A stretch of DNA of 40,792 bases from a gamma proteobacterium HIMB30 (GTDB taxonomy: Bacteria > Pseudomonadota > Gammaproteobacteria > Pseudomonadales > Litorivicinaceae), in the NCBI GenBank assembly GCA_000227525.2, contig AGIG01000036.1:1-40792 (forward strand), given 5' to 3'. The notes under the pieces were generated by a model. That model was not told where the DNA came from, ran no database searches, and saw nothing but the letters and a program-made list of their open reading frames with translations. A program made the position numbers and the translations under genes. Positions 93 to 22,587 of the stretch are shown here, piece by piece; position 1 is the stretch's first letter, and each line of letters starts with the position of its first letter.

Positions 93-1079
93 ATGCGATT
101 CCCAAAACTTAAACTGCTAGCCGCGCTGACCTTTGGCGCATTCGTACAAACCTCAGTCGCCGCTGACTATCCAAATAAGCCTGTCACCATGGTGATTCCA
201 TACGGCTCTGGGGGTGCAACAGATATCTCAGCACGAACACTATCTGATCCGCTGGGCAAGTTGGTCAACCAACCATTATTGATGGTCAACCGAACAGGCG
301 CTGGTGGGGCGACCGGTTCTGTGTCAGTCAAAAATGCCAAAGCAGATGGCTACACATTACTGTTTGCACGTGTCGGATCTCATTCCGTGAATCCTGCAAT
401 GAAGGCGACCCTTCCCTACACACTCGATGATTTTGAATTTATCGGTGTCTATGAAATTAACCCTGTTGCCTGTGCAGTAAAAGCGGATTCTGATATCAAT
501 TCGATGGACGATCTAATTGCAAAAGTGAAAGCCAATCCCGGTCAAGTCAGTTACTCATCGTCAGGTGTCGGATCTTTACTCCACTTGGCAGGTGCGTATG
601 TTTTGAGTGAATTCGGTGTTGCCAACCCAACCAAAGACGTTGTCCATATCCCATTGAAGGGAGGTGGCGCTGCCGCAACTGCGGTACTTGGTGGTACAGC
701 GACATTCATCTGCACCAACTCATCTGCGCTGGCTAGCTTCATCAAAAACAAGCAGCTAAAGCCACTGATGGTGACAACTGCAGAGCCGGTTGCCGGATTT
801 GATGCGCCAACATCGGTCGATTTGGGCAAGCCAAACCTGCAAAAGCTAGTCGGATGGACTGGTCTCGCGGGGCCAAAAGGGATGCCGAAAGAAGTCGGCG
901 ACACATGGCGCGGCATTCTACAGAAAGCGACTGATGACAGTGGCTTCCGTTCAAAAATGGAAGCACGGGGCTCAGTTATTGAGATGATGGATCCCGACAC
1001 TGCCAAAGCCTTCATTAATGATCAATACAGCACGTTCCGTGCGTTAGTTGACGAACTCGGTATGCGTATCGAGGGTTGA
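93..1079 (+). CDS. tctC: Tripartite tricarboxylate transporter substrate-binding protein (TctC/Bug family)
   Basis: Periplasmic binding protein of a TTT importer, which captures a carboxylate and passes it to the TctAB membrane pair. The 328-residue length is normal for the Bug family. A Sec signal peptide is visible (basic start, hydrophobic run, cleavage near VAA at about residue 24), followed by the Bug N-terminal pattern YPNKPVTMVIPYGSGGATD. The ATG is preceded by AAGGAG at good spacing. It is the first gene of an operon running to 7160, separated from tctB by a perfect hairpin, and should be expressed more strongly than the membrane subunits. The ligand cannot be read from the sequence. 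The related SlcHFG system carries sulfolactate in Chromohalobacter, so a sulfonated carboxylate is plausible given the neighbouring sulfonate genes. Confidence 0.9.
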   Translation: MRFPKLKLLAALTFGAFVQTSVAADYPNKPVTMVIPYGSGGATDISARTLSDPLGKLVNQPLLMVNRTGAGGATGSVSVKNAKADGYTLLFARVGSHSVNPAMKATLPYTLDDFEFIGVYEINPVACAVKADSDINSMDDLIAKVKANPGQVSYSSSGVGSLLHLAGAYVLSEFGVANPTKDVVHIPLKGGGAAATAVLGGTATFICTNSSALASFIKNKQLKPLMVTTAEPVAGFDAPTSVDLGKPNLQKLVGWTGLAGPKGMPKEVGDTWRGILQKATDDSGFRSKMEARGSVIEMMDPDTAKAFINDQYSTFRALVDELGMRIEG

Positions 1080-1089
1080 TGATAGGCCC

Positions 1090-1117
1090 GTAAGACCCTT
1101 TTTCGAAAGGGTCTTAC
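1090..1117 (+). promoter_or_regulatory. Intercistronic stem-loop between tctC and tctB
   Basis: A perfect 12-bp inverted repeat (GTAAGACCCTTT, 1090-1101, against 1106-1117) closes on a TTCG tetraloop at 1102-1105, with no T-tract behind it. It starts 10 bases after the tctC stop and ends 17 bases before the tctB ATG. It looks like an RNA-stabilising or partly terminating element that raises binding-protein mRNA over the membrane subunits, rather than a full terminator. Confidence 0.8.
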
Positions 1118-1134
1118 CTTCTTAAGGAATCCCC

Positions 1135-1614
1135 ATGTCGAACCGCGCACTTGGCATTCTGTGCTGTGTACTGGCTATTTTTTTATGGTTTTATGCGATC
1201 CCAACCTGGGTATCCGCACCGTCAAATGTGTCCAAAGTCGTCCTCTCACCAACGTTTTGGCCTCTGATCATCGCTGCTCTCATCGGACTATCTGGCATCT
1301 ATTTGGTCGCAATGGAAGCAGTGCAGGCAACTCATGACACAGAAACGTTAGAACAACCAGAAAGCGCAATGGCTGGATCGATACGCCTGATTTTGGGCGC
1401 AGTCGCCATGGTGATATTCCTTTTCAGTGTAGAGACGACAGGATTGGTCATTGGTTCCATGGCGTTGTTCTTAGTCATCGCAATCATTATCACGCAGACC
1501 ATATCGTTACGCTTTGTGCTCATCGCGATCTGCCTACCGATCGCCCTCTACGGCTTTTTCGCACATGTCGCCTCAGTTGCAGTGCCACAAGGTGAATGGA
1601 TCCAACTCCCATGA
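1135..1614 (+). CDS. tctB: Tripartite tricarboxylate transporter small membrane subunit (TctB family)
   Basis: The 159-residue protein has about four hydrophobic helices, at roughly residues 7-25, 38-58, 83-103 and 106-150 (the last stretch probably two). This fits the poorly conserved small TctB subunit that pairs with TctA. The ATG follows AAGGAA at suitable distance. Its stop overlaps the tctA start as ATGA at 1611-1614, implying translational coupling and equal subunit production. The family call rests on topology, length and position between TctC and TctA more than on motifs. Confidence 0.87.
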   Translation: MSNRALGILCCVLAIFLWFYAIPTWVSAPSNVSKVVLSPTFWPLIIAALIGLSGIYLVAMEAVQATHDTETLEQPESAMAGSIRLILGAVAMVIFLFSVETTGLVIGSMALFLVIAIIITQTISLRFVLIAICLPIALYGFFAHVASVAVPQGEWIQLP

Positions 1615-3116
1615 TTGATAATATTCTGGCTGGCATTTCAGTTGTTGCGAATTTCGAGAGTATTTTAGCGCTCGCTGGTGGTGTACTTATCGGAGTGATC
1701 GCAGGAGCAATCCCGGGAATGTCAGCGACCATGGCCGTCGCCCTCACCTTACCCTTCACCTTTTCATTAAGTCCGATTACCGGAATTCTGTTGTTACTGG
1801 GCGTCTATAAAGGTGGGATCTTCGGCGGATGCATACCGGCGATTTTGATTAAAACACCGGGAACGCCTGCTTCAAGCGCCACCGTCTTGGATGGCCATCC
1901 AATGGCCGAACAAGGTGAGTCTGGAAGAGCGCTGGGAATGGCATTGTATGCATCCTGCACAGCTGACTTAATCTCGAATCTTGCATTGATCTTATTTGCT
2001 GGATGGCTCGCTTCTTTCGCGCTGAAATTTGGCCCTCCTGAATTTTTCACATTGATTCTTTTTTCACTAACAATCATCGCCGGTGTCTCTGGCGCTAGTC
2101 TCGTACGCGGGATTTTCTCGGCACTTCTTGGATTGTTGTTCGCAACCGTTGGCCTCGATTTGGTGTATGGGACCAACCGATTCACCATGAATGATCCCAA
2201 TTTAATGGGTGGACTCAACTTTATTGCTGTGTTGATCGGGTTATTTGCAATCCCAGAAATTCTCAACATGATTTGGAGTCCGGATAAAAATAGTGGCCAA
2301 GCCCGCAAACTGAGTTCAGCTTGGGTGTCCTTTGCTGAATACAAACGCTGCTTCAAGTCGATTATTCGAGGTTCCTTCATCGGCGTATTCCTGGGCAGTA
2401 TTCCCGGTATCGGTGCCGCGCCTGCTGCATTTTTGTCCTACAGTGAAGCAAAACGAAACTCACCAAATAAAGAGAACTTCGGGAAAGGTGAGATCGAGGG
2501 CGTTGCCGCATCCGAAGCAGGTAACAACGGGGTCGCGGGTGCAACATTGATACCATTGCTGGCATTAGGAGTTCCCGGGGATGTGATTACCGCGATCATC
2601 ATCGGCGCGTTCATGATTCACGGTCTACAACCCGGTCCAATGATGTTTCTCTCGAATGTGGACATTATCTACGCGCTGTTTGTTGGCCTCATCCTCAGTT
2701 CAATTTTTCTGTTTGGCATTGGAAGCTTCGCGATCCGTGGTTTTCGATTTATCTCGAAAATCCCAAAAGCGGTATTACTGCCATCCGTACTGATTCTGTG
2801 TATTTACGGATGCTATGCGATCAACAACACCTTATTTGATGTCGGTGTGATGTTCGCGATGGGTTGGCTTGGGTTCTTGATGTATCGAGCATCCATTCCA
2901 GCACCGCCTTTTTTAATTGCCTTCATTCTTGGTCCTTTGTTCGAAGATAACTTCCGACAAGCCATGCTGATGTCCAACGGCGACATGGGTATTTTATTCC
3001 GAAGCCCAATTACGTGGTTCTTCTGGGCGGCCACACTGCTCACAATTGTTGCCATCTCGAAAAAAGTTCGAGAACTCGAGAACAAACCCGGTCAACTGAC
3101 CAAGGACGCCAAATGA
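1611..3116 (+). CDS. tctA: Tripartite tricarboxylate transporter large membrane subunit (TctA family)
   Basis: Main permease subunit of the TTT importer, about 501 residues and 11-12 membrane helices, the usual size. It carries the family glycine/proline-rich segment IAGAIPGMSATMAVALTLPF near residues 30-50, a second similar segment GSIPGIGAAPAAFLSY near 265, and the ASEAGNNGVAGATLIPLL motif near 300. I chose the ATG at 1611, coupled to the tctB stop, over the in-frame ATG at 1596, because TctA proteins begin just before the first helix. The stop overlaps the next start as ATGA (3113-3116), so importer and ThDP enzyme are translationally linked. Confidence 0.93.
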   Translation: MIDNILAGISVVANFESILALAGGVLIGVIAGAIPGMSATMAVALTLPFTFSLSPITGILLLLGVYKGGIFGGCIPAILIKTPGTPASSATVLDGHPMAEQGESGRALGMALYASCTADLISNLALILFAGWLASFALKFGPPEFFTLILFSLTIIAGVSGASLVRGIFSALLGLLFATVGLDLVYGTNRFTMNDPNLMGGLNFIAVLIGLFAIPEILNMIWSPDKNSGQARKLSSAWVSFAEYKRCFKSIIRGSFIGVFLGSIPGIGAAPAAFLSYSEAKRNSPNKENFGKGEIEGVAASEAGNNGVAGATLIPLLALGVPGDVITAIIIGAFMIHGLQPGPMMFLSNVDIIYALFVGLILSSIFLFGIGSFAIRGFRFISKIPKAVLLPSVLILCIYGCYAINNTLFDVGVMFAMGWLGFLMYRASIPAPPFLIAFILGPLFEDNFRQAMLMSNGDMGILFRSPITWFFWAATLLTIVAISKKVRELENKPGQLTKDAK

Positions 3117-4660
3117 ACTGTGCTCATTGGTTAACCCGATTTATTAAAGCACAGGGTATCGATACGGTCTTTTCGGTCTCAGGCAATCAGATCATGCCGG
3201 TATATGACGGTTGCCTTGATGCCGAGGTTCGTATCATTCACGCGCGTCATGAAGGCGCATGTGTTTTCATGGCTGACGGATACTCCCAAATCGCGAGGCA
3301 ACCAGGGATTGCGCTAGTCACTGCTGGGTCTGGATTTATGAATGCACTCGGTGCTGCGTTTGCGGCGAAAAGTGCACGCGCACGGGTGCTTCTTTTGAGC
3401 GGTGATTCACCGGTCAAATTGGACGGACAGGGCGCATTTCAGGAAATGCAACAAACTCGAGTATTTGAGGCTGAGTTCGATTTTACTCGGCGGCCGCGCA
3501 CCGTACCTGAGTTTATCTCAGCAATTGAGGCGGCATATCAATACTTGATTTCAGATACCTGCAATGGTCCTGCCCATGTTGCGCTTCCTGCCGATATCTT
3601 ACTCGCTGAGTGTGACAACCACCCAGTTCGCCTTAAGACGACAAATACTCTGTCAGCGACAGCCCAAACAATCGCGCGAAGCATGCAAGAGGCAGTACAA
3701 GCCGCGGCGTATCCAGTCGTTCTGTTAGGGCCACAACTGAATCGGACGCGTCATCCAGGGCTTCGCGAGTCACTTAGTGATTTATTTGACTGCCCAGTGC
3801 TGTGCATGGAAAGTCCAAGGGGCATCGCCGACCCAGCAGAACCAGAGTTGGCCGATCATTTGGCTCAAGCCGATCTGGTCATCCTCTTGGCAAAGCCGAT
3901 CGATTTTACACTGAAGTTTGGTCGTGGAGTTGCAGACGACTGTCGATGGATTGTGATCGACCATGACTCACGCTTGATCAGTCAGGCGAAAGCGAATCTC
4001 TCGCACACAGACTTTGAGACTCACACCGTCTCAGCCGAGCAGGTGATACAGTCACTCGCAATCACGCCGACTGTCAAACAATCACAGGTCGCGAGTCATC
4101 AGAAGATTGAAGCGCATGCTGAATTATTTGAAGCGATCACATCTGTCTGTCAAGAGCAGTCACGCGACGTCATTCTCATCAGTGATGGCGGTGAATTTGG
4201 GCAATGGGTTCAGGCTGCACTCCATGCGTCCCTTCGTGTCATTAATGGAGTGTCCGGAACCATCGGGGGCGGACTCGCTTATGGAATGGGCGCTCAAATA
4301 GCGCGCCCAGATGCACTGGTGATTGCATGCATGGGCGATGGAACAATCGGATTCCATCTTGGTGAATATGAGACCGCAGCACGAGAAGGTCTTCCAGTCG
4401 TTACCCTGATCGGTAACGACCATCGCTGGAATGCGGAATATCAGATCCAAGTCCGAGAGTTTGGCTTGGAGCGTGCCTATGCATGTGAGTTAAGTGACGC
4501 CAAGTACGGTGAGGCAGTGTCTGCACTGGGGGGTTATGGTGCTGATATAGATGAGGTTAGCACACTTACTGCCAGGTTAAGGGACGCGATCAATCATCGA
4601 ACAGTTGCATGCTTGAATGTCACAATTGATCCGATCGCCTACTCCAGAGGCGCGAAGTGA
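3113..4660 (+). CDS. Thiamine-diphosphate-dependent enzyme, acetolactate synthase/benzoylformate decarboxylase-like
   Basis: The 515-residue protein has the three-domain layout of ThDP decarboxylases and synthases. An N-terminal PYR domain contains the catalytic Glu47 in HARHEGACVFMADGY. A central domain covers about 190-330. A C-terminal PP domain holds the metal/diphosphate motif GDG at 408-410 with Asn435 in LIGNDHRWN. The start at 3113 overlaps the tctA stop (ATGA); an open extension upstream to 3014 lies within tctA and lacks family similarity. It is shorter than sulfoacetaldehyde acetyltransferase (about 590) and longer than ComDE-type sulfopyruvate decarboxylase. The general chemistry, cleavage or decarboxylation next to a carbonyl, is secure; the substrate is unknown. 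Being next to a mandelate-racemase homologue recalls the mandelate/benzoylformate pairing, but a 2-oxo-sulfonate such as sulfopyruvate is an alternative. Confidence 0.85.
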   Translation: MNCAHWLTRFIKAQGIDTVFSVSGNQIMPVYDGCLDAEVRIIHARHEGACVFMADGYSQIARQPGIALVTAGSGFMNALGAAFAAKSARARVLLLSGDSPVKLDGQGAFQEMQQTRVFEAEFDFTRRPRTVPEFISAIEAAYQYLISDTCNGPAHVALPADILLAECDNHPVRLKTTNTLSATAQTIARSMQEAVQAAAYPVVLLGPQLNRTRHPGLRESLSDLFDCPVLCMESPRGIADPAEPELADHLAQADLVILLAKPIDFTLKFGRGVADDCRWIVIDHDSRLISQAKANLSHTDFETHTVSAEQVIQSLAITPTVKQSQVASHQKIEAHAELFEAITSVCQEQSRDVILISDGGEFGQWVQAALHASLRVINGVSGTIGGGLAYGMGAQIARPDALVIACMGDGTIGFHLGEYETAAREGLPVVTLIGNDHRWNAEYQIQVREFGLERAYACELSDAKYGEAVSALGGYGADIDEVSTLTARLRDAINHRTVACLNVTIDPIAYSRGAK

Positions 4661-5247
4661 AAACAATCGTCATTCAGGGTGAAGATCGGTCGATCGCCGC
4701 CGACGTCTTTGAGTCCAGTGATCGATGGGTTTTACTCTGTCATGGAAAGGTATTTGATAAAAGCGACTGGGGCCTCCTGCCGCAAACGTTAGAACGTTCT
4801 CAGGTGAGCGTTCTAGCGATCAATTTTTCGGGCTATGGTGAATCCTCCGGCGCTCAAGACTCCAATCAATATCCCTACGATATCGAGACAGCCCTCACTT
4901 GGTTACAACAGCAAAACCCTTCATCAATCTCTGTAATCGGCGCTTCGATGGGTGCAATCGCGCTCCTTCACTGGGCTCAGTCCATACCAACACCAATAAC
5001 ACTCGAGACAACTGTCTTGTTTGCCCCACGCGCAGCGCCAAAGGCCATCATCCCCACCCGGTCATTGTATTGTGTATTTAACGAATGCGAGGATGATGTC
5101 GCAGACCACACCCAGTCTGTTGAAGCCAATCTACCAAACGCACAATTGCACTTTATTCCGGGGACAGCCCACGCACAAAACAACTTCAAACAAGCGCAGG
5201 CCGATCAGGTTGTGAACACCCTCACCTCACTCATCCTCGGCTCCTAG
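4657..5247 (+). CDS. Small alpha/beta hydrolase
   Basis: The 196-residue alpha/beta hydrolase fold is minimal. An oxyanion-type HG occurs in LLCHGKVFDKSDW (about residues 27-39). The nucleophile elbow GASMGA carries the Ser near residue 96, a likely acid Asp sits in NECEDDVAD, and the final His is in GTAHAQ near residue 169. It starts with GTG overlapping the previous stop (GTGA, 4657-4660) and ends directly against the next ATG. There is no signal peptide, so it is cytoplasmic. It may hydrolyse an ester, thioester or beta-diketone made by the neighbouring ThDP enzyme or enolase homologue; nothing in the sequence fixes the substrate. Dienelactone-hydrolase-like esterase is the nearest description. 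Confidence 0.8.
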   Translation: MKTIVIQGEDRSIAADVFESSDRWVLLCHGKVFDKSDWGLLPQTLERSQVSVLAINFSGYGESSGAQDSNQYPYDIETALTWLQQQNPSSISVIGASMGAIALLHWAQSIPTPITLETTVLFAPRAAPKAIIPTRSLYCVFNECEDDVADHTQSVEANLPNAQLHFIPGTAHAQNNFKQAQADQVVNTLTSLILGS

Positions 5248-6018
5248 ATGCTGGGAGATCTACCCAATCTCTTCGGGATCAGCTGGGTACAACTTGTGTT
5301 GATCCCACTTGCGTTTATTGTCGGTGGAACAGCGAAAGGCGCGCTCGGTTTTGGGCTTCCCTTCGTGACTGTATCAATCATCCCGTTATTCGCGCCGCTC
5401 GAGATAGCGCTCGCAGTGAACGCAGTGGTGTTACCGATTTCAAATTTCATGCAATTCACCCAAAGCGGAGTGATTCGGCCAACACTCAAGCGATATCGTT
5501 TGGTTGTCTTCGGGATTTTGGTGGGAGCGCCATTCGGAGCTTATCTCCTGAATGCGATGGATGTGCATATTATCGAACTGATCCTCGGCATCTTCGTGAT
5601 GTGCTTTGTATTCATCACGCTGTACAACCCAAGCATGCAAGTTCCTCCTGAAAACGAAAAACAGCTTGGATTAGGTGTTGGCCTGTCTGCGGGCGTGATC
5701 GGTACCATGACTACCGTCAACGGTCCATTCTTCATCATGTATCTACTTGGTTTACATGTCGATCGCAAAGAAATGCTGGCAGCGCTCGGTTTATTATTTA
5801 TTGTGTCCGGTCTTTGCTTCGCGGCATTTTTCAGTTTCTTCGGAATTCTCAACGTGGAGCGGGCAATCCTTGGCTTGGTCTGTGCACTGTTTGCCATGGC
5901 TGGCATGCGCTTGGGTGATTGGGTGGTGCAATTCATCGATCGCGATTTCTTCAGAAAACTCGTCCTCTGTGGACTGTTTATCCTCGGATTCAATATCTTT
6001 CTCAGGGGCCTTGGATGA
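5248..6018 (+). CDS. TauE/SafE family anion exporter (operon 1 copy)
   Basis: This 256-residue membrane protein has about eight helices in two repeated halves, each opening with the family glycine-rich pattern (VGGTAKGALGFGLPFVTV near residue 25 and AGVIGTMTTVNGPFFIMYLL near 150). TauE/SafE members export sulfite, sulfoacetate or similar anions and are common in sulfonate operons. The ATG abuts the hydrolase stop with no gap, and the end overlaps the next gene as ATGA. Its presence in the TTT/ThDP operon is the main sequence hint that the pathway releases an anionic product, possibly sulfite. The family also contains proteins of unrelated function, so this is not proof. Confidence 0.86.
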   Translation: MLGDLPNLFGISWVQLVLIPLAFIVGGTAKGALGFGLPFVTVSIIPLFAPLEIALAVNAVVLPISNFMQFTQSGVIRPTLKRYRLVVFGILVGAPFGAYLLNAMDVHIIELILGIFVMCFVFITLYNPSMQVPPENEKQLGLGVGLSAGVIGTMTTVNGPFFIMYLLGLHVDRKEMLAALGLLFIVSGLCFAAFFSFFGILNVERAILGLVCALFAMAGMRLGDWVVQFIDRDFFRKLVLCGLFILGFNIFLRGLG

Positions 6019-7160
6019 ATATTCAGAACATTACGCTCTATCCGTGCAGCATTCCATTAGCGAAGCCAGTGGTCACCTCGTTCGGCAAAATGATCGCTCG
6101 ATCGTCATTACTGATTGCAGTCACTGACTGCGATGGCCAAACTGGATGGGGAGAATGTTGGTGTAATTTTCCAAGCGGTGGAATGGCTTATAAGGTTCGG
6201 CTGTATCAGGACACGGTCGCACCACGGATTCCAACACAAGCCGATTTAACGCCGTCACAACTATTCAATCACCTCACCGAGGCCTTGCGCGTGATTGCTT
6301 GCCAGACAGGAGACCAAGGTGCCATTGGGCAAGTGATCGCAGGTCTTGATATTGCTCTTTGGGATTTAGCAGCGAGGCAGCAACAGCAACCACTGGCAGC
6401 TCTACTCAATCCAAATTTTCATCGGCAACTACCAATGTACGCATCAGGTGTTGATCGTAAAGAAATTGAACAACGGATTGCATCCGCTCGCTCTCTTGGT
6501 ATTACCGACTACAAACTCAAAGTGGGTTTTGAGCCACGCGATGATCTCGATGCAATCGAATATTTTTTGAGTCAACTGACGACCGAGGAATCGTTAGCAA
6601 TCGACGCCAACCAGGGCTGGTCAGTCGCCAAGGCTCGCTCAGTATTACCAGAAATACCCAATGAGATTCATTGGATCGAAGAACCGATTCTGGCAGATGA
6701 ACCCTTTGAACAGTGGGCTGAATTGCAGGCCCTAACCGCCGTTCCCTTCTCAGGCGGCGAAAACTATTTGCACAAAGGCGCTTACACTGCCTATTTTGAG
6801 AGCATCCAGAAGCCCTTCCATATTCTGCAACCGGATGCGTGTAAATGGGGTGGTATTACAGGAGTCAGCGACCTGTTTCCCGCGATTCGTCATGCCGGTA
6901 TCGCCTATTATCCCCATTTTCTGGGGAGCGCTGTCGGCCTAGCGGCATCAGCGCATCTTCTTGCCGCTGAAGGTGGCTCGGGCTTGCTGGAATATGACAT
7001 TCAACCCAATCAACTCCGTGACGGATTGGCAATTGAACCGTTACCCGTCGCAGATGGCTCATATCAAATCAGCGATCACGTCGGGCACGGTATTGATCCC
7101 AACCCTACGGTGCTCAGACAATGGTGCCAAGAGTCAATCGTTCTCGAATTAACTCACTAG
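6015..7160 (+). CDS. Mandelate racemase/muconate lactonizing enzyme family protein
   Basis: Enolase-superfamily barrel enzyme of 381 residues that abstracts a proton alpha to a carboxylate using Mg2+. Visible are the KxK catalytic pair (Lys167, Lys169 in YKLKVG), metal ligands Asp197 (IDANQGW), Glu222 (WIEEP) and Glu249 (GGEN), and a mandelate-racemase-like Asp274/His301 dyad (QPDACKWGG; YYPHFLG) with Glu326 in LLEYD. This set fits the racemase/acid-sugar-dehydratase branch better than muconate cycloisomerases. The start at 6015 overlaps the exporter stop (ATGA); upstream extension runs into the exporter and lacks similarity. The 3' end overlaps the opposing ComC gene by 12 bases. Racemisation of a 2-hydroxy acid or dehydration of a dihydroxy acid are both possible; sulfolactate is an attractive candidate by context only. 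Confidence 0.87.
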   Translation: MNIQNITLYPCSIPLAKPVVTSFGKMIARSSLLIAVTDCDGQTGWGECWCNFPSGGMAYKVRLYQDTVAPRIPTQADLTPSQLFNHLTEALRVIACQTGDQGAIGQVIAGLDIALWDLAARQQQQPLAALLNPNFHRQLPMYASGVDRKEIEQRIASARSLGITDYKLKVGFEPRDDLDAIEYFLSQLTTEESLAIDANQGWSVAKARSVLPEIPNEIHWIEEPILADEPFEQWAELQALTAVPFSGGENYLHKGAYTAYFESIQKPFHILQPDACKWGGITGVSDLFPAIRHAGIAYYPHFLGSAVGLAASAHLLAAEGGSGLLEYDIQPNQLRDGLAIEPLPVADGSYQISDHVGHGIDPNPTVLRQWCQESIVLELTH

Positions 7161-8153
7161 CTGCTTGACTTCATCCAGTAACACGTTGGAGACAGCAATC
7201 CCTTGGCTGTCCGCTTGCGCACGCAGACTGAGTCGCCGAGTACCGGGTAGACGCGTTCCTTCCTGATCCAATACCTCTGATATCAGAATCTCCAGTCGCT
7301 GACTGAAGTGCCCTCCAGAAAATAATTGAGGGTCAATACAGATTAATGTTTGACCCACTGCTGGCGAGTCCCCTACTGCCTCAAAAAATGACGTTGCTTC
7401 AAAGCCAAAATTAGCGCCACTGAGTGCTGCAGATAAAATTTCGACAAGGAGAACCAAGGCTGCCCCTTTGGCGCCGCCCATTGGCAGCATCGATCCTGCA
7501 AGCACTGCATGTGGATCTGTCGTCGGATGTCCCTGTTGGTCGAGACCCCAACCTTCTGGAATGTCCCGCCCCTCTTTCGCAGCAACCATCACCTTACCTC
7601 GGGCCACCTCACTTAGAGACATATCAATCACAAGCGGTTCAGCGTTCGAACGAGGTGCTGCAAACGCGATCGGATTGGTGCCAAAGATTGGCTTTGATCC
7701 ACCATAGGGAGCAATCGCTGCCGGGCTGTTACCGACGATTAAGGCGATGAGGCCTTGCTCGGCTAATCGCTCAACGTGCCAGCCGGCAACACCAAAATGA
7801 TGTGATCGAAAAATAGAGGCTGCCGCAATACCGATCGATCTCGCTTTATTCGATAACTGCTGAAGTGCAACATCAATTGCCGGGAACGCAAATCCATATC
7901 CTGCATCGATTCGCAAAGCACTTGCAGTTTCGGCAACGACATGTGGTGTCGCATGACCTTGTACCTTCCCTGTTCGAGCTTGCGCACAATAGCTTGCCAC
8001 TCGAGAAACCCCATGCCCTATCTGCCCATCCAACTGCGCTTGCGTTAACGCCCGCGCAACACTGGTTGCATTAGGCTCTGACACATTCGATTGAATCAAT
8101 GCCTGTGTAATGAGCTGCTCGAGCTCGTGACGTGGAACGAACATATCACTCAT
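7149..8153 (-). CDS. comC: Malate/L-lactate dehydrogenase family protein, probable ComC (sulfolactate dehydrogenase)
   Basis: NAD(P)-dependent 2-hydroxyacid dehydrogenase of the LDH2/MDH2 family, 334 residues. The family motifs GQIGHGVSR (near 45), the catalytic-His region RSHHFG (near 118), and FGTNPIAFA (near 160) are present. In Chromohalobacter, ComC with SlcC racemises sulfolactate through sulfopyruvate; this gene lies directly behind slcC and suyAB, which supports that role. The ATG at 8153 overlaps the slcC stop by 8 bases, and I prefer it to a TTG at 8159. The C-terminal end overlaps the opposing mandelate-racemase homologue. Other members reduce malate, ureidoglycolate or sugar acids, so the name depends on context. 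Confidence 0.85.
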   Translation of the reverse strand: MSDMFVPRHELEQLITQALIQSNVSEPNATSVARALTQAQLDGQIGHGVSRVASYCAQARTGKVQGHATPHVVAETASALRIDAGYGFAFPAIDVALQQLSNKARSIGIAAASIFRSHHFGVAGWHVERLAEQGLIALIVGNSPAAIAPYGGSKPIFGTNPIAFAAPRSNAEPLVIDMSLSEVARGKVMVAAKEGRDIPEGWGLDQQGHPTTDPHAVLAGSMLPMGGAKGAALVLLVEILSAALSGANFGFEATSFFEAVGDSPAVGQTLICIDPQLFSGGHFSQRLEILISEVLDQEGTRLPGTRRLSLRAQADSQGIAVSNVLLDEVKQLVS

Positions 8154-9075
8154 AACCAAGTGCCCTTAATACATTTTCAGCTGTGACCTGGCTCACTCGA
8201 TGATTGGATTCGTGAGTCACTCCTGCGATGTGTGGTGTCAGAATCAGTTGATCAATCCCCTCGAATTGGGCGCCCCGCAATTGATCAAGCGGTTCATCTT
8301 CGAACACATCGAGAGCCGCACCACCGATGTGGCCGGTTTTCAGGTGGTGAATCAGTGCTCTCTCATCAACGATACCGCCGCGCGACGTATTGATCAGAAT
8401 TGCGCCTGTTTTCATCTGCGCAAAGCGCTCAGAATCAATTAATCGGTACGTTTCATCATTCAATGGCACATGAATACTGACGCAATCGGCGATCGCCAGT
8501 AACTCATCCAAACTTCTCGATCGCAAGGCCCCAAGCGCCGTGTTCTCTGATGTCAGGTAAGGATCAAAATAGGCGATCCGCATACCGAAAGCAGCCGCTC
8601 TGAGTGCCACAAACTGAGCAATCTGCCCAAAACCGACGAGGCCAATCGTTTTTCCGGAAATTTCACCGCCGATAAACTGCTCTCGTGGCCAATCACCGCC
8701 AACCATTGCTTGAAAACCAGTTGTCATCGGACGCCGCAGATGAAGCATGGCACTCATAACATATTCAGCGACTGCGATCGCATTGGCGCCAGTCGCAGGG
8801 AGTACCTGAATGTTCGCGATCGCCGCTGCTTGTTGATCGATATTATCAAGACCAACACCAAGCCGACCAATTGCTTTTAAATGCTCTGCCGCAGCCAGTA
8901 GATCAGAAGTCACGCGTGTTCTATTACGCACGATCAACGCATCTGCTGTTTCAACACGCTGCAATAATTCATCATGACGTTCGAAAAGGTCAGGCACATA
9001 GTCCACCTGGACTCTGTTTTTCAGAAACGCGAGTGCTGAACCATCCATGAATTCAGTCACGAGAACCCTGGTCAT
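8146..9075 (-). CDS. slcC: D-3-phosphoglycerate dehydrogenase-like 2-hydroxyacid dehydrogenase, probable SlcC ((S)-sulfolactate dehydrogenase)
   Basis: The 309-residue D-isomer-specific 2-hydroxyacid dehydrogenase has the NAD-binding motif GLVGFGQIA near 145 and the catalytic Arg in INTSRGG near 230. The catalytic Glu region DVFEDEP follows, then His in LTPHIAG near 280. The ATG at 9075 follows GGAG 8 bases upstream; the open frame to 9114 crosses a terminator and is not protein. SlcC oxidises (S)-sulfolactate to sulfopyruvate, which ComC reduces to the (R) form used by SuyAB. It is translationally linked to comC. The rho-independent terminator directly before its ribosome-binding site means it is read only by polymerases that pass suyAB's terminator or from a local promoter. 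Confidence 0.87.
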   Translation of the reverse strand: MTRVLVTEFMDGSALAFLKNRVQVDYVPDLFERHDELLQRVETADALIVRNRTRVTSDLLAAAEHLKAIGRLGVGLDNIDQQAAAIANIQVLPATGANAIAVAEYVMSAMLHLRRPMTTGFQAMVGGDWPREQFIGGEISGKTIGLVGFGQIAQFVALRAAAFGMRIAYFDPYLTSENTALGALRSRSLDELLAIADCVSIHVPLNDETYRLIDSERFAQMKTGAILINTSRGGIVDERALIHHLKTGHIGGAALDVFEDEPLDQLRGAQFEGIDQLILTPHIAGVTHESNHRVSQVTAENVLRALGYE

Positions 9076-9085
9076 CTGATACTCC

Positions 9086-9112
9086 AAAAAAAAAGGGGAC
9101 CATTGAGTCCCC
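9086..9112 (-). terminator. Rho-independent terminator/attenuator between suyB and slcC
   Basis: Read on the minus strand, a 6-bp stem GGGGAC/GTCCCC (9112-9107 with 9100-9095) around a 6-base loop is followed at once by nine T residues (9094-9086). It starts 13 bases after the suyB stop and its T-run touches the slcC Shine-Dalgarno GGAG. It probably lowers slcC-comC expression relative to suyAB. Confidence 0.85.
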
Positions 9113-9125
9113 AAACAAGTGCAGA

Positions 9126-10298
9126 TTAGGCGCTTCGGTAGAGCTTGGTCATCACGAACTCGCGATGCTTCAAAACCTCCGCTGCAGTCATACGACCGTT
9201 ACACGTCCGAATTGTCATATCGATAAGCGCATCACCAGCCTGATCGAGGTTCAACTCACCACTCAAAATGCCAGATACATCGACATCGACATGCTCGCCC
9301 ATCGTACGGACTGTTTTCGGATTAGCAGTCAACTTAATGACTGGCTCGATTGGATTACCAATAATGTTTCCCTGCCCCGTTGGGAAGAGGTGCACAACGA
9401 AGCCAGCAGCAGCCTGCAAGGTGACACACTCTGCAGCAGCTGAGGATGTATCCATGAAGTAAAGGCCCTTGCCCGCTGACGGCATTTCTGCTGGCTCGAG
9501 GACATCGATAAATTGCGTTTTCTTACCGATTTTTTGGAGGTTACCAAATGCCTTTTCTTCGATGGTCGTCAAGCCACCTGCGATGTTACCTTTGGTTGGC
9601 TGACTGTCTGATAAGTCAGAGGTTTTGTGTGGCTCAATGACTTCATCCATGTACGACTGCCAAGTCTTCATGAATTTTTCACCGATTTCTGGTGTTACAC
9701 CACGCTTAGCACACTCATGTTCAGCGCCAGTCAGTTCTGATGTCTCTCCGAAGCAGGTTGTCACTCCGAGTGGATCCAACTTATCGATCAAATTCCCGAC
9801 AGTTGGGTTGGACGCAAGTCCAGACGTTGTATCTGATTCACCACATTTCACACTGATCCAGAGTTCGCTGACATCACATGGCTCACGTTGCAGTTCAGAG
9901 GCCCAATGGACCATTTCTTTTGCCCTACGGGATGCATCAGCAACGACCTGAATCTCGCCATTTCCAGAGATTCCGAAGCCTTCAACTGGTTTACCAGTCG
10001 CGCGGATCCCTTCAACCACTTTACCCGTCCAACCGGCTTCGATACCGATCACAATCACCGCAGCAACGTTCGGGTTACAACCGGTACCAATCAGCGTTCT
10101 AAAGTGAAGATCCAAATCGGCACCGAATTGTAGACGCCCATAATGGTGTGGCAATGCAATACAGCCTGCTGTATTGGCAGCGACTTTTTCTGCTGCCGCG
10201 TTTGAGAGGTCATCTAACGGTAGGATAACGACGTAATTACGAATACCAACACGACCGTTCTCGCGGCGATAACCAAGGAAACTTTTTGGAAGACTCAT
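9126..10298 (-). CDS. suyB: (2R)-sulfolactate sulfo-lyase large subunit SuyB
   Basis: The 390-residue protein of the altronate/galactarate dehydratase (UxaA C-terminal) family opens with the typical [21 protein letters not shown]. Conserved cysteines occur in GTGCNPN (near 75), [11 protein letters not shown] (near 153) and RTCNGR (near 368). Together with SuyA it eliminates sulfite from (R)-sulfolactate, giving pyruvate. The ATG at 10298 lies 2 bases after the suyA stop with GAGGTGG upstream; an in-frame GTG at 10307 overlaps suyA and is less likely. Without SuyA, HpsN and Soe nearby it might be called a sugar-acid dehydratase, but this neighbourhood makes SuyB the strong choice. Confidence 0.93.
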
Positions 10299-10300
10299 GC

Positions 10301-10588
10301 TTACCACCTCTTTGTTTTGCAGTTGTGAACGTGGACGTGGTTACCAATTTTGGCACCAGCGATCATCCGGCCGATGTCACTTGAGTACTTCAGCACGGTG
10401 TCATCTTCATTCATGTCAATCAGTGCGATTTTATGCCCCAACGGAATCGCGTCGAGCGCCTGAACTTCGACATTCTCACCTGTCTCCATCACTAACCCAC
10501 GCAGGGTTTTCCCCGCCTCGACTGTTTCAACAACAATCACACCGACATTATCTGCCTTGTCGTGCACTAGAAAATCAGGTTGCGACAT
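10301..10588 (-). CDS. suyA: (2R)-sulfolactate sulfo-lyase small subunit SuyA
   Basis: This 95-residue SAF-domain protein matches the small UxaA N-terminal half found as a separate chain in SuyAB. Visible features are [13 protein letters not shown] at the start, [12 protein letters not shown] in the middle and the C-terminal [11 protein letters not shown]. It begins at ATG 10588 behind a very strong GGAGG and runs 2 bases from suyB, so the two subunits are made together. It is the first gene of suyAB-slcC-comC and diverges from the GntR regulator, with a 152-base shared control region. Confidence 0.93.
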
Positions 10589-10740: not shown

Positions 10741-11454
10741 ATGCAAAAGCTTTTTACGGCGCCACTTTACGTTCAAATCCGCGAGGAAATCTTTGCTGCA
10801 TTACGCTCGGGACGTTGGTCAACAAACGAGCCACTACCCTCAGAGACAAAGCTCGCGTCAGAGTTTTCAGTCAGCCAAGGAACCATCCGCAAAGCGATCG
10901 ATGACTTAGTGGCACAAAACATCTTATATCGCCATCAGGGTCGTGGAACTTTCATCAGAAGACATGACGAGCAACAAAGCCTGTTCCGATTTTTTAACCT
11001 GGCACGCGAAGATGGAAGTAAGCCTGTCCCCGCGAGTGTGAATATTCACTGCAAAACCCGCAAAGGCCTAAAACATGAGTGTTCCGCGCTGGGCGTCGCG
11101 ACAGGAGAACGACTGATTGAAATACTCAGACTCAGGCACCTCGACCACCAACCGATGATTCTTGAAACCATTCTCGTGAGTCAGCAAAGATTCCCTGATC
11201 TCAACAAGCGCGATTTACCCAATACGCTGTATGAGCTCTACGGAGATGAATACAACATTCATATCACGCGTGCTGAAGAGCAAGTGACCGCGATCAGCGC
11301 TGATATCAACGTGTCAGGACATCTCAAAGTGAAAGCCAAAACGCCACTGATTGAGATTCGTCGCATCGCATTCGATCTGCATGATCAACCGGTTGAGCTC
11401 CGCATCAGTCAATGTGTGACGGGTCCTTACGTGTACGCCTGCTCTCTTAACTAG
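10741..11454 (+). CDS. GntR family (HutC-type) transcriptional regulator beside suyAB
   Basis: The 237-residue regulator has an N-terminal winged helix (about residues 8-72: PLYVQIREEIFAAL, LPSETKLASEFSVSQGTIRK and the wing RHQGRGTFI) and a C-terminal UTRA ligand domain (about 90-235). HutC-type proteins are usually repressors released by a pathway metabolite. It diverges from suyA, so the likely target is suyAB-slcC-comC and itself, with sulfolactate or sulfopyruvate as a plausible effector. The end overlaps the opposing IclR gene by 8 bases. Confidence 0.9.
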   Translation: MQKLFTAPLYVQIREEIFAALRSGRWSTNEPLPSETKLASEFSVSQGTIRKAIDDLVAQNILYRHQGRGTFIRRHDEQQSLFRFFNLAREDGSKPVPASVNIHCKTRKGLKHECSALGVATGERLIEILRLRHLDHQPMILETILVSQQRFPDLNKRDLPNTLYELYGDEYNIHITRAEEQVTAISADINVSGHLKVKAKTPLIEIRRIAFDLHDQPVELRISQCVTGPYVYACSLN

Positions 11455-12239: not shown

Positions 12240-13142
12240 TTAATGACGCTCTCCGTAAAACAAAGTCACAACGTGCTTCGCTTCTGCAAAAAACAACCAA
12301 CGCTCAATTAAAATTCCGGCAAAATGGATGATCGGAATCAATACGATTAACCAGGAAACCCCAGACCATAACGCCGCTAGCGGCAAAACAAATGCCAGTG
12401 CAACTGCGATCTGTGACAGTCGATGGATATGCCGCCTCGCCACAACAAATCCCATTTCATGTTGCAACCAGTTCTCTTCAGTGTGCGGGGACATCAGTAG
12501 ATCGACCTGACCAAGCGATCCGAGACCCGTGGCAGTTTCTGGAGTCGATTCTGATTGCTGATTTCCGGCCCGTTTCCACCAAATCAACTTCACCGCAAAA
12601 GCGATAACTAATCCAATTGTTGTGATTTCAGTCAGACTCGACTGCCCGACAATGACCTGCTCCCACGCATTCAGAGCGAGCAACCCTCCGCAAACTGAGA
12701 GCGCGAGGTATACCCAAGGTGTGAGCGGATGATACCAACGCAACACCGTCCTTAAGCTGGCGTAAATCATTGCGGTTGTCCACACCGTCACAAGGCTCAA
12801 TGTCGCAACGACCAGACCTAAGGTTGACGGACGCTCACCGTCGATATACCAGACTACCGAATAAATGAGTGTGCAGAGGATGGTCGCCACGGCACAGACA
12901 CCTTCCCGAGATAACCATGACGAACGCCACTGCGACAAGGCTCGCCAAGCGCGCTCCGGATGCCCAAGATGTAAAAGCGAAGACATGAGACCGACCGAGA
13001 CCGCCATCACCCCGAGGACGGTGAAGAGGATGACGTCTATCGGGTCATTGATGGCAACGAACCCAAGCCCAAACCAAAACAACAGCCCGAGACCAAGGCC
13101 AGACAAGGATGTAAAAACAATAATTGACCATGCAGGACGCAT
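12240..13142 (-). CDS. soeC: SoeC, membrane anchor of sulfite dehydrogenase (DmsC/NrfD-like)
   Basis: The 300-residue protein has about eight hydrophobic helices and the DmsC hallmark SSLLHLGHPERAWRAL near residues 54-69, followed by WRSSWLSREG. DmsC-type subunits anchor the Mo/Fe-S pair to the inner membrane and exchange electrons with quinone. It follows soeB with a 14-base gap. In this context it should pass sulfite-derived electrons to the quinone pool. DmsC of DMSO reductase is the closest alternative name, but the partner lacks a Tat signal and the locus generates sulfite. Confidence 0.86.
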   Translation of the reverse strand: MRPAWSIIVFTSLSGLGLGLLFWFGLGFVAINDPIDVILFTVLGVMAVSVGLMSSLLHLGHPERAWRALSQWRSSWLSREGVCAVATILCTLIYSVVWYIDGERPSTLGLVVATLSLVTVWTTAMIYASLRTVLRWYHPLTPWVYLALSVCGGLLALNAWEQVIVGQSSLTEITTIGLVIAFAVKLIWWKRAGNQQSESTPETATGLGSLGQVDLLMSPHTEENWLQHEMGFVVARRHIHRLSQIAVALAFVLPLAALWSGVSWLIVLIPIIHFAGILIERWLFFAEAKHVVTLFYGERH

Positions 13143-13156
13143 TCAATTGACCTCCG

Positions 13157-13912
13157 TTAACCCAATTTCGCCAGAGTGGTATCAACCCAACCCCAAAATC
13201 CATTCATATCTGGTGATTGCTGTTCAGTTGAAGACTCGGACTGCGATCGATCAGAAGCGATCAAATGACGCTTCTCACGGGGAGGGAGGTACTTATTCAC
13301 CGGGGATGTCTCTTGTTCAGGCATCAGATCGAAGCCACCACGATCTCGAACCAATTGGCTCACATCAGATTCTGGATCGCCAAGATCACCGAATGCTCGT
13401 GCCCCTGTTGGACACGTCCGAACACATGCTGGAACACGGTCCTCTTCGGGCAGATTCTCGTTATAGATTCGATCGACACACAGCGTGCATTTTTTCATCA
13501 CCTGCTCGACTGGGTCCATTTCCCGAGCTCCGTAAGGACAGGCCCAAGCGCACAAACCGCAACCGATACAATGGTCTTCGTTAACCAGCACAATGCCATC
13601 GTCTACGCGTTTGTATGAGGCACCTGTCGGACATACAGTCACACAAGGCGCATCAGTGCAGTGGAGGCATGACTTTGGAAAATGCACAACTTGAGCGGTG
13701 GAATCGGTTTTCACCTCGAAGGTATGGATTCGATTTAACCAAGCGCCAGTCTGTTGCGCTCCGTAGGCATTCACATCCGATAATGGTGCGCCCTCCGACC
13801 CGGTATTCCACTCTTTGCAATTCACCACACAAGCGTGGCAGCCAACACAGATATCGAGATCAATGACCAGTCCAAGCTTTTTTGCACTTGGTTCTTCCGG
13901 CAACATTGTCAT
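13157..13912 (-). CDS. soeB: SoeB, four-cluster iron-sulfur subunit
   Basis: This 251-residue electron-transfer subunit shows the four ferredoxin-type cysteine groups. They begin at CVGCHACVVNC (near 22), CTDAPCVTVCP (near 82), CIGCGLCAWACP (near 115) and CTLC with CVRTCP (near 140-165). This is the standard DmsB/PsrB/SoeB pattern linking a molybdenum subunit to a membrane anchor. The start overlaps the soeA stop (ATGA at 13912-13909). There is no signal peptide. Confidence 0.92.
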   Translation of the reverse strand: MTMLPEEPSAKKLGLVIDLDICVGCHACVVNCKEWNTGSEGAPLSDVNAYGAQQTGAWLNRIHTFEVKTDSTAQVVHFPKSCLHCTDAPCVTVCPTGASYKRVDDGIVLVNEDHCIGCGLCAWACPYGAREMDPVEQVMKKCTLCVDRIYNENLPEEDRVPACVRTCPTGARAFGDLGDPESDVSQLVRDRGGFDLMPEQETSPVNKYLPPREKRHLIASDRSQSESSTEQQSPDMNGFWGWVDTTLAKLG

Positions 13913-16836: not shown

Positions 16837-17652
16837 GTGATAATAATTTTTCCATTGATTGGAATAAGTACCTTGGAATTTATTAATTTCTACGCCAGCG
16901 CAGCTGGTTTTTGTTTCGCGCTTTTGATTTTATGGTCGGGCGTTGGCGCCGGCGTTCTCGTCATTCCCACGCTCATTACGCTGTTTCACCTCGATCCGTT
17001 AGTTGCTATCGCATCAGGCAGTGCATTCGCATTTATTTCAAAAATCATGATGACTATTGGTCATGCCACACAAGGCTCTGTCGATTGGGCCGCTGCTTAT
17101 CACTTCCTACGCATCTGTCTACCAGTCACAGTCATCACTGCTGCCTTGATGGCGTATCTTTCAACAAGCCAGCCAAGTGTCACTCTCGAACTTTTTCTAA
17201 TCGGTGCCATTTTAGTTGCTGGATGTCTCGCACTGTTTGCTCTCTTAAGTGCCCGAGTCAAAGCGATCATTTCCCATTGGCCGATGGTGCGGCTCAGCGG
17301 AACAACCGGCCTTCTGATGGGGCTTACAGGCGTCGGTGGCGGTGTCATGGTGGTCCCGGCACTGGCAACCAGCGGAGGCCTTGCGATCAAGGCCGCAGTT
17401 GCCACATCAATCCCCGTCGGACTGATATTGTCACTTGCCGTATCAATTACACTCGGATCCAGCGGACATCTCGACTACGGACTGGTCGCCTCACTTGTGA
17501 TCGGGGCCGCCGTTGCAATTCCAATCGGTACACGCCTTTTTCATCGTTTTTCCGACGATCTTGTGCGACGTGTTACCTGCCTTTTAATTTCGATCGCACT
17601 TATTGATCTCGCTCTCAAAGCGATCAACCTCGCTCTTCAGTTGTCACGATGA
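16837..17652 (+). CDS. TauE/SafE family sulfite/sulfate exporter (second copy)
   Basis: This membrane protein of up to 271 residues has eight or so helices in two halves, with family segments WSGVGAGVLVIPTLITLF near 33 and GLTGVGGGVMVVPALATSGG near 162. No ATG lies near the start. The listed GTG at 16837 lacks a ribosome-binding site, while a TTG at 16873 has GGAA 8 bases upstream and is equally likely. It diverges from soeA and ends 1 base from the opposing dehydrogenase. It differs clearly from the 256-residue copy in operon 1. A role in exporting excess sulfite or the sulfate made by SoeABC fits the setting. Confidence 0.83.
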   Translation: MIIIFPLIGISTLEFINFYASAAGFCFALLILWSGVGAGVLVIPTLITLFHLDPLVAIASGSAFAFISKIMMTIGHATQGSVDWAAAYHFLRICLPVTVITAALMAYLSTSQPSVTLELFLIGAILVAGCLALFALLSARVKAIISHWPMVRLSGTTGLLMGLTGVGGGVMVVPALATSGGLAIKAAVATSIPVGLILSLAVSITLGSSGHLDYGLVASLVIGAAVAIPIGTRLFHRFSDDLVRRVTCLLISIALIDLALKAINLALQLSR

Positions 17653-20695: not shown

Positions 20696-20714
20696 CTGAC
20701 TTTCTCCTCTGAAA

Positions 20715-22046: not shown

Positions 22047-22564
22047 GAGGAGCGCTCCTCATCAAATAACTGACCACCCTCGAAAGGCGCCTCACTCCGC
22101 CTCCAGCTATCGATGTCAAACCGGATGGATTGAATCAAGCGATAGGTCATCAGCGAAAAGCCGACGGGCACTGCGAATAAAAACAGTGCGAAAGGAACTC
22201 GAAGCCCATGGGTGACAGACCCAAACTTGACAGCCGTCAGGACAGAATCCATCGACCAGATCAACGCGATCACGGCAACACTCAGCATGATGAGATCACC
22301 AAAAATGTACAGAGCTGCCTTGACTTTGGTCGGACAAAAATTGAACAGGACATCGATACGAATATGCGCTCTTTCACGGACAGCCGCAGACGCTCCAATC
22401 CAAGCGAGATAGATAAAGCTGTAACGGACAATTTCTTCGCCCCAAATTGATGAGTAAGCAAATATTTCGCGCCGTAACACTTCAATCGCCATGGTGATAA
22501 CGAGCATCGTATAAAAGACGAGTAAAGCCCAAGCCTCGATGTTTTGGTCCGATCGAGATCGCAT
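22043..22564 (-). CDS. hpsL: TRAP transporter small permease (DctQ/HpsL type)
   Basis: The 173-residue protein with four membrane helices shows the DctQ signature region RYSFIYLAWIGASAAVRERAH near residues 50-70 and FFxxPVGFSLM-like C-terminal pattern. I chose ATG 22564 because GGAG lies 6 bases upstream. The open frame to 22612 passes through the intercistronic hairpin. It is coupled to the large permease by ATGA. Confidence 0.88.
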   Translation of the reverse strand: MRSRSDQNIEAWALLVFYTMLVITMAIEVLRREIFAYSSIWGEEIVRYSFIYLAWIGASAAVRERAHIRIDVLFNFCPTKVKAALYIFGDLIMLSVAVIALIWSMDSVLTAVKFGSVTHGLRVPFALFLFAVPVGFSLMTYRLIQSIRFDIDSWRRSEAPFEGGQLFDEERSS

Positions 22565-22587
22565 AAAATTCTCCAGAACTAAAGGGA

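Follow-up and report, generated by a model that had tools for sequence, protein, structure and literature searches.

A seven-gene operon of gamma proteobacterium HIMB30 is one half of a widely conserved, sulfonate-linked gene cluster

A seven-gene operon at the end of contig C1

The stretch of DNA analysed here (the window) comprises positions 1–40792 of contig C1 of the gamma proteobacterium HIMB30, whose genome (G000) is in 36 contigs. As the first base of the window is also that of the contig, the 5′ neighbour of its first operon is missing from it. This operon contains seven open reading frames (ORFs), all on the + strand and with successive gaps of 55, −4, −4, −4, 0 and −4 nt, coding for a tripartite tricarboxylate transporter (TTT; TctC, TctB and TctA), a thiamine diphosphate (ThDP) enzyme, an alpha/beta hydrolase, a TauE/SafE exporter and a mandelate racemase (MR) homologue (Table 1). 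It is one half of a widely conserved, sulfonate-linked cluster, the other half of which codes for a succinate dehydrogenase (SDH)-like complex and a fumarase-like hydratase and lies on contig C21 of the same genome. The arrangement on one strand, with coupling by ATGA or GTGA overlaps or zero spacing from tctB on, had been noted in the initial annotation and agrees with the coordinates and gaps, and Pfam confirms the families. The operon had also been called a self-contained unit, which does not hold, as the genes on C21 belong to the cluster. That it could not be matched to a named pathway is borne out: none of the seven proteins reached the cut-off of an NCBIfam model, and no description of the cluster was found in the open-access literature (most subscription journals and the Mayer thesis lay outside the search). 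The cluster is apparently undescribed so far.

The operon was further thought to run directly into sulfolactate genes. These are indeed adjacent, overlapping it by 12 nt (7149–7160), but they do not continue it in the same direction: homologues of suyA, suyB, slcC and comC form one operon on the − strand (window 7149–10588), tail to tail with the seven genes, and the two sets are separate transcripts. The curated SuyAB models were not reached by the suyAB-like genes of the window.

The ThDP enzyme forms a clade of its own near 2-hydroxyacyl-CoA lyase (HACL) and benzaldehyde lyase. Among 34 aligned members of its family, Glu47 and the GDG motif are invariant and the GND motif is nearly so. Its predicted structure (model pLDDT, the predicted local distance difference test, of 89.5) has HACL and benzaldehyde lyase as best Foldseek matches, with 21–23% identity. 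Three established functions were tried and rejected, namely Xsc (TIGR03457, 125.7 bits for a cut-off of 676.4), HACL proper (NF058623, 184 bits for a cut-off of 600) and acetolactate synthase (score far under the cut-off). The enzyme is a single chain, unlike the two-subunit sulfopyruvate decarboxylase SpyDE/ComDE (TIGR03845/TIGR03846), and no SpyE (TIGR03846) over the cut-off was found in G000 (TIGR03845 was not searched by itself). Of the other operon products, the TauE/SafE protein is a probable exporter of sulfite (or of an organosulfonate), the hydrolase has a GASMG nucleophile elbow and a GTAHA histidine, and the racemase homologue has the KxK motif (167–169), Asp274, His301 and the metal-ligand motifs, in the roles that we presume for them.

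Partner genes at the end of contig C21

Contig C21 (60028 nt) ends with the genes for the SDH-like complex and the fumarase-like hydratase and with a LysR gene in divergent orientation. At 55747–58442, the SdhA-like gene (68% identity to that of locus L028) lies beside a FumA-like gene (77% to that of L031), and these are followed by a fumB-like gene and the LysR gene, which starts 45 nt short of the contig end. The sdhBDCA and fumAB-like genes are thus placed in a way compatible with adjacency to C1. The end of C21 and the start of the window share no exact overlap of at least 10 bases; that the two contigs probably abut is something we infer because relatives keep the order sdh/fum ... tctCBA/thdp in one stretch.

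A tblastn map of the neighbours, which replaced a neighbour clustering that had taken in many antisense ORFs in high-GC genomes, gave a recurring block in these relatives consisting of sdhB-sdhD-sdhC-sdhA-fumA-fumB, TauE, LysR and TctCBA. The run from fumB through TauE and LysR (both reversed) to tctC-tctB-tctA-thdp is continuous in L056, L066, L071, L090, L092, L103 and others, some of which have an MR gene in between. Sulfitobacter S190, with fumB, a reversed LysR gene and tctCBA but without TauE or ThDP, has the order nearest to C21 plus C1. When representatives of the block were scanned, SdhA/FrdA-like and TtdB-type proteins stayed under their cut-offs, while the SdhB type exceeded that of dhsB and the FumA/TtdA type its own. 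The fumarase-like proteins are of two types, 30–37% identical, and the SdhA-like protein is 31–32% identical to the two other flavoproteins of its family in the genome (labelled SdhA and NadB by motif).

Linkage around ThDP relatives

Relatives of the ThDP enzyme were examined in the best 80 of 483 candidate stretches, and neighbours were counted within 10 kb of the ThDP gene above set identity floors. Many of these loci are on short contigs, so that the counts are lower bounds. The sdh/fum module was found in 53 of the 80 loci (fum genes in 53, sdhA in 46), tctA (at least 55% identity) in 40, TauE of the window's or a second subfamily in 45 and LysR in 42; tctA is directly upstream of thdp in 17, and LysR directly before tctC in 28. 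TctA is 61–79% identical across its 40 loci, and the window TctC shares 50–71% with the TctC of the 38 loci that also have the window-type TctA. Loci of more than 19 kb number 53; of these, the sdh/fum genes are present in 42, tctA in 30 and the sulfite module in 39. The seven families of the window operon, taken as a unit in the initial annotation, therefore stay together in part: tctA and TauE are frequent, whereas the racemase homologue (at least 33%) is found in 16 loci and the hydrolase (at least 40%) in one, L026. The small hydrolase is, on this sampling, lineage-specific.

Genes of sulfite metabolism are also common, with a sulfite dehydrogenase in 21 of the 80 loci, a sulfate exporter in seven, and either of these or TauE in 49. 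Among aldehyde dehydrogenases, methylmalonate-semialdehyde dehydrogenase (MMSDH) occurs in six loci and succinate-semialdehyde dehydrogenase (SSADH) in two; the latter adjoins the ThDP gene in L055 (over the cut-off) and L052 (just under it), and a gene resembling L-2-hydroxyglutarate oxidase (217 bits, cut-off 299) follows it in four loci. These neighbours suggest that the ThDP enzyme could produce a semialdehyde from a 2-oxo acid that is one carbon longer.

Other genes recur near the module but are outside the pathway proposed below: nitroreductase (five loci in the neighbour clustering), glutathione S-transferase, amidohydrolase-like, NIPSNAP and CaiB genes. A homocysteine S-methyltransferase-family gene lies between the fumA-like and fumB-like genes in L129 (12088–13002), where L130 has an equally long ORF, and a CaiB CoA-transferase gene takes this place in the Marivita and Litoreibacter loci. 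Directly after the fumB-like gene, a 278-aa amidohydrolase-like protein is encoded in L075 (16678–17514), L121 (6159–6992), L122 and L158, the L075 copy being 57–83% identical to those of the other three.

Within the window's own genus, a close ThDP relative (71–100% identity) was found in two of 22 genomes, G000 and G015; in the others the best matches were at about 1e-15 or weaker, or, in two, absent. The trait therefore appears patchy, several of these genomes being incomplete.

Plasmid loci and wider spread

Plasmid records contain the SdhA-like protein on 17 plasmids (13 of which were viewed) and the ThDP enzyme on seven. In one run, pMRAD01 of Methylobacterium radiotolerans has sdhB-D-C, fumA-B, sdhA, ThDP, TauE, two UxaA genes, DctA, an NAD(P)-dependent oxidoreductase, Ldh and GntR. 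The UxaA pair is 72 and 46% identical to the suyB- and suyA-like products of the window, the oxidoreductase 52% to slcC and Ldh 50% to comC. This plasmid unites homologues of the window's sulfolactate genes with C21-type genes, together with other transporters. The loci of Paracoccus versutus pTAV3 and P. ferrooxidans contain sdh-fum, YeiH, NIPSNAP, TauE, LysR, Ldh, a hydroxyacid dehydrogenase and a TTT, which in pTAV3 may be another system, as its TctC shares only 29% identity with that of the window. In Sulfitobacter THAF37 the locus comprises ThDP, sdh-fum, MR, TauE, LysR and TctCBA, with a 3-sulfinopropanoyl-CoA desulfinase gene (635 bits, cut-off 600) about 3 kb beyond tctA. In Pseudomonas MPC6 the MMSDH gene starts on the fumB stop, and a sulfate exporter and a sulfite oxidase are also encoded there. 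Downstream of sdh-fum, Pseudorhizobium NT-26 has genes of a tripartite ATP-independent periplasmic (TRAP) transporter, a sulfolactaldehyde-3-reductase-like protein (324 bits, cut-off 348) and SSADH (691 bits, cut-off 646), the last two of which could equally serve the conversion of 2,3-dihydroxypropane-1-sulfonate (DHPS) to sulfolactate.

Two haloarchaeal plasmids code for SdhA-like and SdhB-like proteins with an ArgH-like gene in the place of the fumarase genes, beside TauE and UxaA genes and, in one of them, Ldh. Their suyB-like protein is only 33–35% identical to that of the window. The ArgH-like protein, of which one of the two was scanned, scores 323 with the argH model (cut-off 279.5) and 257 bits with XcbC (cut-off 575). 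The SdhA-like family was seen in two haloarchaea and in Rhodococcus jostii RHA1 (L152, L153 and L159; 48–51% identity), which suggests a wide horizontal spread.

Association with sulfonate lyases across genomes

A set of 398 Pseudomonadota genomes was swept for the sdhA-like gene (E ≤ 1e-180), the ThDP orthologue (E ≤ 1e-70), Xsc and SuyB, the sets of the separate sweeps being assumed identical. Eleven genomes have the sdhA-like gene; Xsc is over the cut-off in eight of them and SuyB (at least 66%) is present in five, so that all 11 have one or the other. In the whole set, Xsc was found in 26 genomes and SuyB in 15, four being shared, which makes 37 of 398 with either. The hypergeometric probability of this association is 1e-12, with kinship not corrected for: the 11 genomes belong to six families, and five are from a single one (f84) in which Xsc is common (15 of the 26). 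Weak SuyB homologues (31–35%; G391, G442, G440 and second copies elsewhere) were not counted as SuyB. Around sdh-fum, hpsO/sdr/hpsN-like genes occur in L064, L123 and L128, the last two being among the loci of ten other genomes, and L123 also has comC/slcC/suyA-like genes.

The carboxylate-like anion import, sulfite-type anion export and sulfonated acid substrate proposed in the initial annotation are thus supported by the linkage, by the Xsc/SuyB association and by the Methylobacterium plasmid. Degradation of a non-sulfonated C4/C5 dicarboxylate, such as a 2-hydroxyglutarate-like acid, with the sulfur genes being incidental, would fit the L-2-hydroxyglutarate-oxidase-related gene and SSADH near the ThDP gene, and TauE proteins are able to export other anions. 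This is the least probable of the explanations considered, given the genes for sulfite or sulfate handling near 49 of the 80 ThDP loci, the presence of Xsc or SuyB in all 11 genomes, and the SoxC, second molybdenum oxidoreductase, putative sulfate exporter and TauE genes around the Methylobacterium nodulans module.

The ThDP orthologue was found in three of the 398 genomes (G000, G433 and G391), all within the 11. G391 has Xsc and SpyE besides, and G000 and G433 have SuyB with neither Xsc nor SpyE over the cut-off. SpyE was over the cut-off in six of the 12 genomes tested, including G391; its position in G102 falls inside L128. These profiles bear on the possibility that the TTT is an importer of sulfolactate, as SlcHFG systems are according to the parts of PMC5812351 considered here, and that the ThDP enzyme acts as a decarboxylase of sulfopyruvate or, together with a CaiB CoA-transferase, as a sulfolactyl-CoA lyase. 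The product would then be sulfoacetaldehyde, and sdh-fum would serve another sulfonate. The HACL-like fold, the CaiB-type gene near 13 of the 80 ThDP loci and the enzyme set of G391 agree with this possibility, but G000 and G433 do not, the SpyE of G391 weakens the case for the ThDP enzyme as a stand-in for SpyDE, and the sdh/fum genes in 42 of the 53 long ThDP loci are left unexplained. We consider it possible, though unlikely.

Proposed pathway

The operon, as the half responsible for transport and entry, and the C21 genes together may form a catabolic cluster for a C3 sulfonate that mimics succinate, most likely 3-sulfopropanoate, which would be degraded via sulfoacrylate to sulfolactate; we give this a probability of about one half. 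The substrate is a reasoned guess, and, like the others named below, is one that we infer from the enzyme types. A dehydrogenase of the SDH type and a hydratase act on X–CH2–CH2–COO−; if X is a sulfonate, the steps lead from 3-sulfopropanoate through sulfoacrylate to sulfolactate, which is the expected substrate of the adjacent − strand operon. TctCBA would import the small sulfonated carboxylate, the membrane-bound SDH-like complex would oxidise 3-sulfopropanoate, as a look-alike of succinate, to 3-sulfoacrylate, and the fumarase-like hydratase would add water to give sulfolactate. SlcC and ComC could then convert the sulfolactate enantiomers through sulfopyruvate, and SuyAB would split (R)-sulfolactate into pyruvate and sulfite, which would leave by TauE or be oxidised by the SoeABC-like enzyme. 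A semialdehyde feeding into this path most likely comes from the ThDP enzyme, which would cleave a larger sulfonated substrate of 2-oxo (or 2-hydroxyacyl) type, and the racemase homologue could interconvert a 2-hydroxy acid. For these two proteins and for the hydrolase, the substrates and steps are predictions from sequence.

Sulfosuccinate would call for the same reaction types, the SDH-like complex giving sulfofumarate and the hydratase either sulfomalate or, if sulfite is lost, oxaloacetate. TTT systems are transporters of di- and tricarboxylates, and the genes for sulfite export and oxidation would fit as well. Sulfosuccinate would however bring an extra negative charge into a site that has gained a Glu (see below) and would leave the SSADH, sulfolactaldehyde-reductase-like and malonate-semialdehyde dehydrogenase partners unexplained, and the open-access literature contained no paper joining sulfosuccinate, degradation and sulfolactate. 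As the substrate it is quite unlikely.

Where MMSDH is a partner, hydration may in some lineages be accompanied by loss of sulfite, giving malonate semialdehyde. A wider scheme, speculative and rather doubtful, is that many Pseudomonadota and, with a replaced hydratase, haloarchaea run a sulfonate mirror of an arm of the citric acid cycle, in which 2-oxo-4-sulfobutyrate would be converted by the ThDP enzyme to 3-sulfopropanal, by SSADH to 3-sulfopropanoate, by the SDH-like complex to sulfoacrylate and by the fumarase-like hydratase to sulfolactate. Where lineages have malonate-semialdehyde dehydrogenase in place of SuyAB, water would be added at the carbon bearing the sulfonate, so that malonate semialdehyde and sulfite would form directly and desulfonation would need neither Xsc, SuyAB nor CuyA. 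A search on homocysteate degradation gave nothing useful in the open-access literature.

Active-site residues and points against the pathway

The SdhA-like proteins were aligned (69 sequences) with E. coli FrdA numbering and residue roles, which we assume to apply. The catalytic residues His232, Glu245, Arg287, His355 and Arg390 are kept in all 69. Several other observations weigh against 3-sulfopropanoate oxidation and the pathway built on it. The His that binds flavin adenine dinucleotide (FAD) covalently is replaced by Cys in all 67 sequences covering the site, and enzymes with non-covalently bound FAD are usually poor at oxidising bonds of the succinate type. The substrate-site Thr of SDH is Glu in 69 of 69, and an additional Glu would be odd for a dianion substrate. 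The dehydrogenase and hydratase genes lie outside the window, and no sdh/fum genes are nearby in 11 of the 53 longer ThDP loci. Eight of the 11 sdhA-like genomes lack the ThDP orthologue at the threshold used; a copy at 35% identity in L122 (G195) falls under it. As for the distance to suyAB and hpsN, which the initial annotation had singled out, suy/slc/com homologues (at least 40%) are near the ThDP gene in only three of the 80 loci (L024, L025 and L026) and hpsN in one. Any sulfoacetaldehyde made by the ThDP enzyme would have no obvious outlet in G000, which is without Xsc or SpyE. Lastly, a TauE protein of Enterococcus is named as a probable 3-sulfopropanoate exporter in the part of PMC11489063 considered, so that sulfite release does not follow from the presence of TauE alone; the genes for sulfite dehydrogenase and sulfate export point to it more firmly.

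The FAD in aspartate oxidase is also non-covalent, which makes a cysteate or sulfolactate oxidase a live rival: the SDH-like complex would be a low-potential 2-hydroxy- or 2-amino-acid dehydrogenase resembling L-aspartate oxidase, and not a desaturase. The NadB-like protein of the same genome shares the non-covalent FAD, the change of Thr to Glu would be compatible, cysteate is the sulfonate analogue of aspartate, and an aspartate transaminase-like gene (475 bits, cut-off 617) lies near the ThDP gene in THAF37. Sulfolactate, however, is already oxidised by ComC and SlcC, and a hydro-lyase-type gene is always beside sdhA: in the 46 ThDP loci with sdhA (46/46), in the genome loci fetched by sdhA (10/10) and in the viewed plasmid loci (13/13, fumarase-like in 11 and ArgH-like in two). 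Hydro-lyases of such differing origin (two fumarase types and an ArgH-like one) fit better with an intermediate containing a C=C bond, and we regard an oxidase of this kind as rather unlikely.

Other features of the window

The SoeABC-like molybdenum oxidoreductase, to which we apply this name by assumption, is a probable sulfite dehydrogenase and sits between the sulfolactate and the DHPS-type genes (Table 1). The latter presumably lead from DHPS to sulfolactate, and their hps names are likewise taken on assumption. Genes for a SulP-type sulfate permease, a BktB-like thiolase and a 3-mercaptopyruvate sulfurtransferase are found near this sulfonate island (window 26001–29675).

Table 1 Features of the window, with the evidence for each assignment
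Feature	Position	Strand	Evidence
tctC-like solute-binding protein, TTT importer	93–1079	+	Pfam TctC 127 bits; nearest PDB 2dvz, BugD 2f5x
tctB-like small permease subunit	1135–1614	+	Pfam TctB 41 bits
tctA-like large permease subunit	1611–3116	+	Pfam TctA 478 bits
ThDP enzyme, 515 aa	3113–4660	+	Pfam TPP_enzyme_N, TPP_enzyme_C
Alpha/beta hydrolase, 196 aa, GTG start	4657–5247	+	Pfam Hydrolase_4 38 bits
TauE/SafE exporter	5248–6018	+	Pfam TauE 91 bits
Mandelate-racemase-type enolase-superfamily protein, 381 aa	6015–7160	+	Pfam MR_MLE_N, MR_MLE_C; nearest PDB 3ddm
comC-like sulfolactate dehydrogenase, Ldh_2 family	7149–8159	−	Best NF040650 L-sulfolactate dehydrogenase, 226 bits, cut-off 500
slcC-like 2-hydroxyacid dehydrogenase, PGDH family	8146–9114	−	Family matches; 52% to L148 gene
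suyB-like sulfolactate sulfo-lyase large subunit, GD_AH/UxaA family	9126–10307	−	Pfam; 72% to Methylobacterium UxaA gene near sdh-fum-ThDP
suyA-like small subunit, 95 aa	10301–10588	−	46% identity to L148 suyA-like
GntR regulator, divergent from suyAB	10741–11454	+	GntR also beside sulfolactate genes in L024, L148
SoeABC-like molybdopterin oxidoreductase, Fe-S and DmsC-type anchor subunits	12240–16776	−	Domain matches
Second TauE/SafE exporter, adjoining SoeABC-like genes	16837–17652	+	Pfam TauE 107 bits
hpsO/sdr/hpsN-like dehydrogenases and TRAP transporter	17654–23797	−	Family matches

Significance and comparison with known systems

3-Sulfopropanoate is a product of the anaerobic breakdown of sulfoquinovose and DHPS, and if the cluster degrades it, genes would be assigned to an aerobic link that has been missing from the organic sulfur cycle. 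A genomic marker would then be an SdhA paralogue with Cys for the FAD-binding His and [VI][LI]EEG in the active site. Most annotations of the cluster genes (sdhA-, fum- and ThDP-like) on the plasmids viewed read only "FAD-binding protein", "fumarate hydratase" and "thiamine pyrophosphate-binding protein", so that genome surveys based on names would miss the pathway.

The nearest described system is that for sulfolactate in Chromohalobacter and Roseovarius (SlcHFG TTT, SlcC, ComC, and SuyAB or SpyDE-Xsc; some of these gene names are presumed). The − strand operon of the window has the same suyA-suyB-slcC-comC set and a TTT importer is common to both, while the SDH-like complex, the fumarase-like hydratase, the ThDP enzyme and the racemase homologue are added here. 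The TTT gene order also differs, tctC-tctB-tctA in the window against tctB downstream of tctA in SlcHFG, as far as PMC5812351 was considered. With SDH and class I fumarase of the citric acid cycle, the C21 proteins share the subunit make-up, the catalytic residues and the sequence of dehydrogenation and hydration; they differ in the SdhA-like protein, without the covalent-FAD His and with Glu for Thr, and in being encoded inside sulfonate clusters. The intermediates expected of the gene set match those of the 3-sulfopropanoate route of Roseovarius nubinhibens (Mayer thesis, cited in PMC11489063), whose genes are not named in the part of that article considered. There (2024), bacterial 3-sulfopropanoate degradation is described as unreported before, except for this thesis route via sulfoacrylate and sulfolactate, and Bilophila is shown to use 3-sulfopropanoate as electron acceptor.

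In bacterial coenzyme M biosynthesis, the ArgH-superfamily enzyme XcbC1 makes and releases sulfoacrylate (sulphoacrylic acid), according to the parts of PMC8727900 considered. A member of this superfamily replaces the fumarase in the two haloarchaeal clusters, though XcbC1 works in the biosynthetic direction, and we know of no SDH-like partner for it. The ThDP enzyme, finally, has the fold and the catalytic Glu in common with HACL and benzaldehyde lyase, but differs from them in its low identity, its length and its failure to reach any NCBIfam model.

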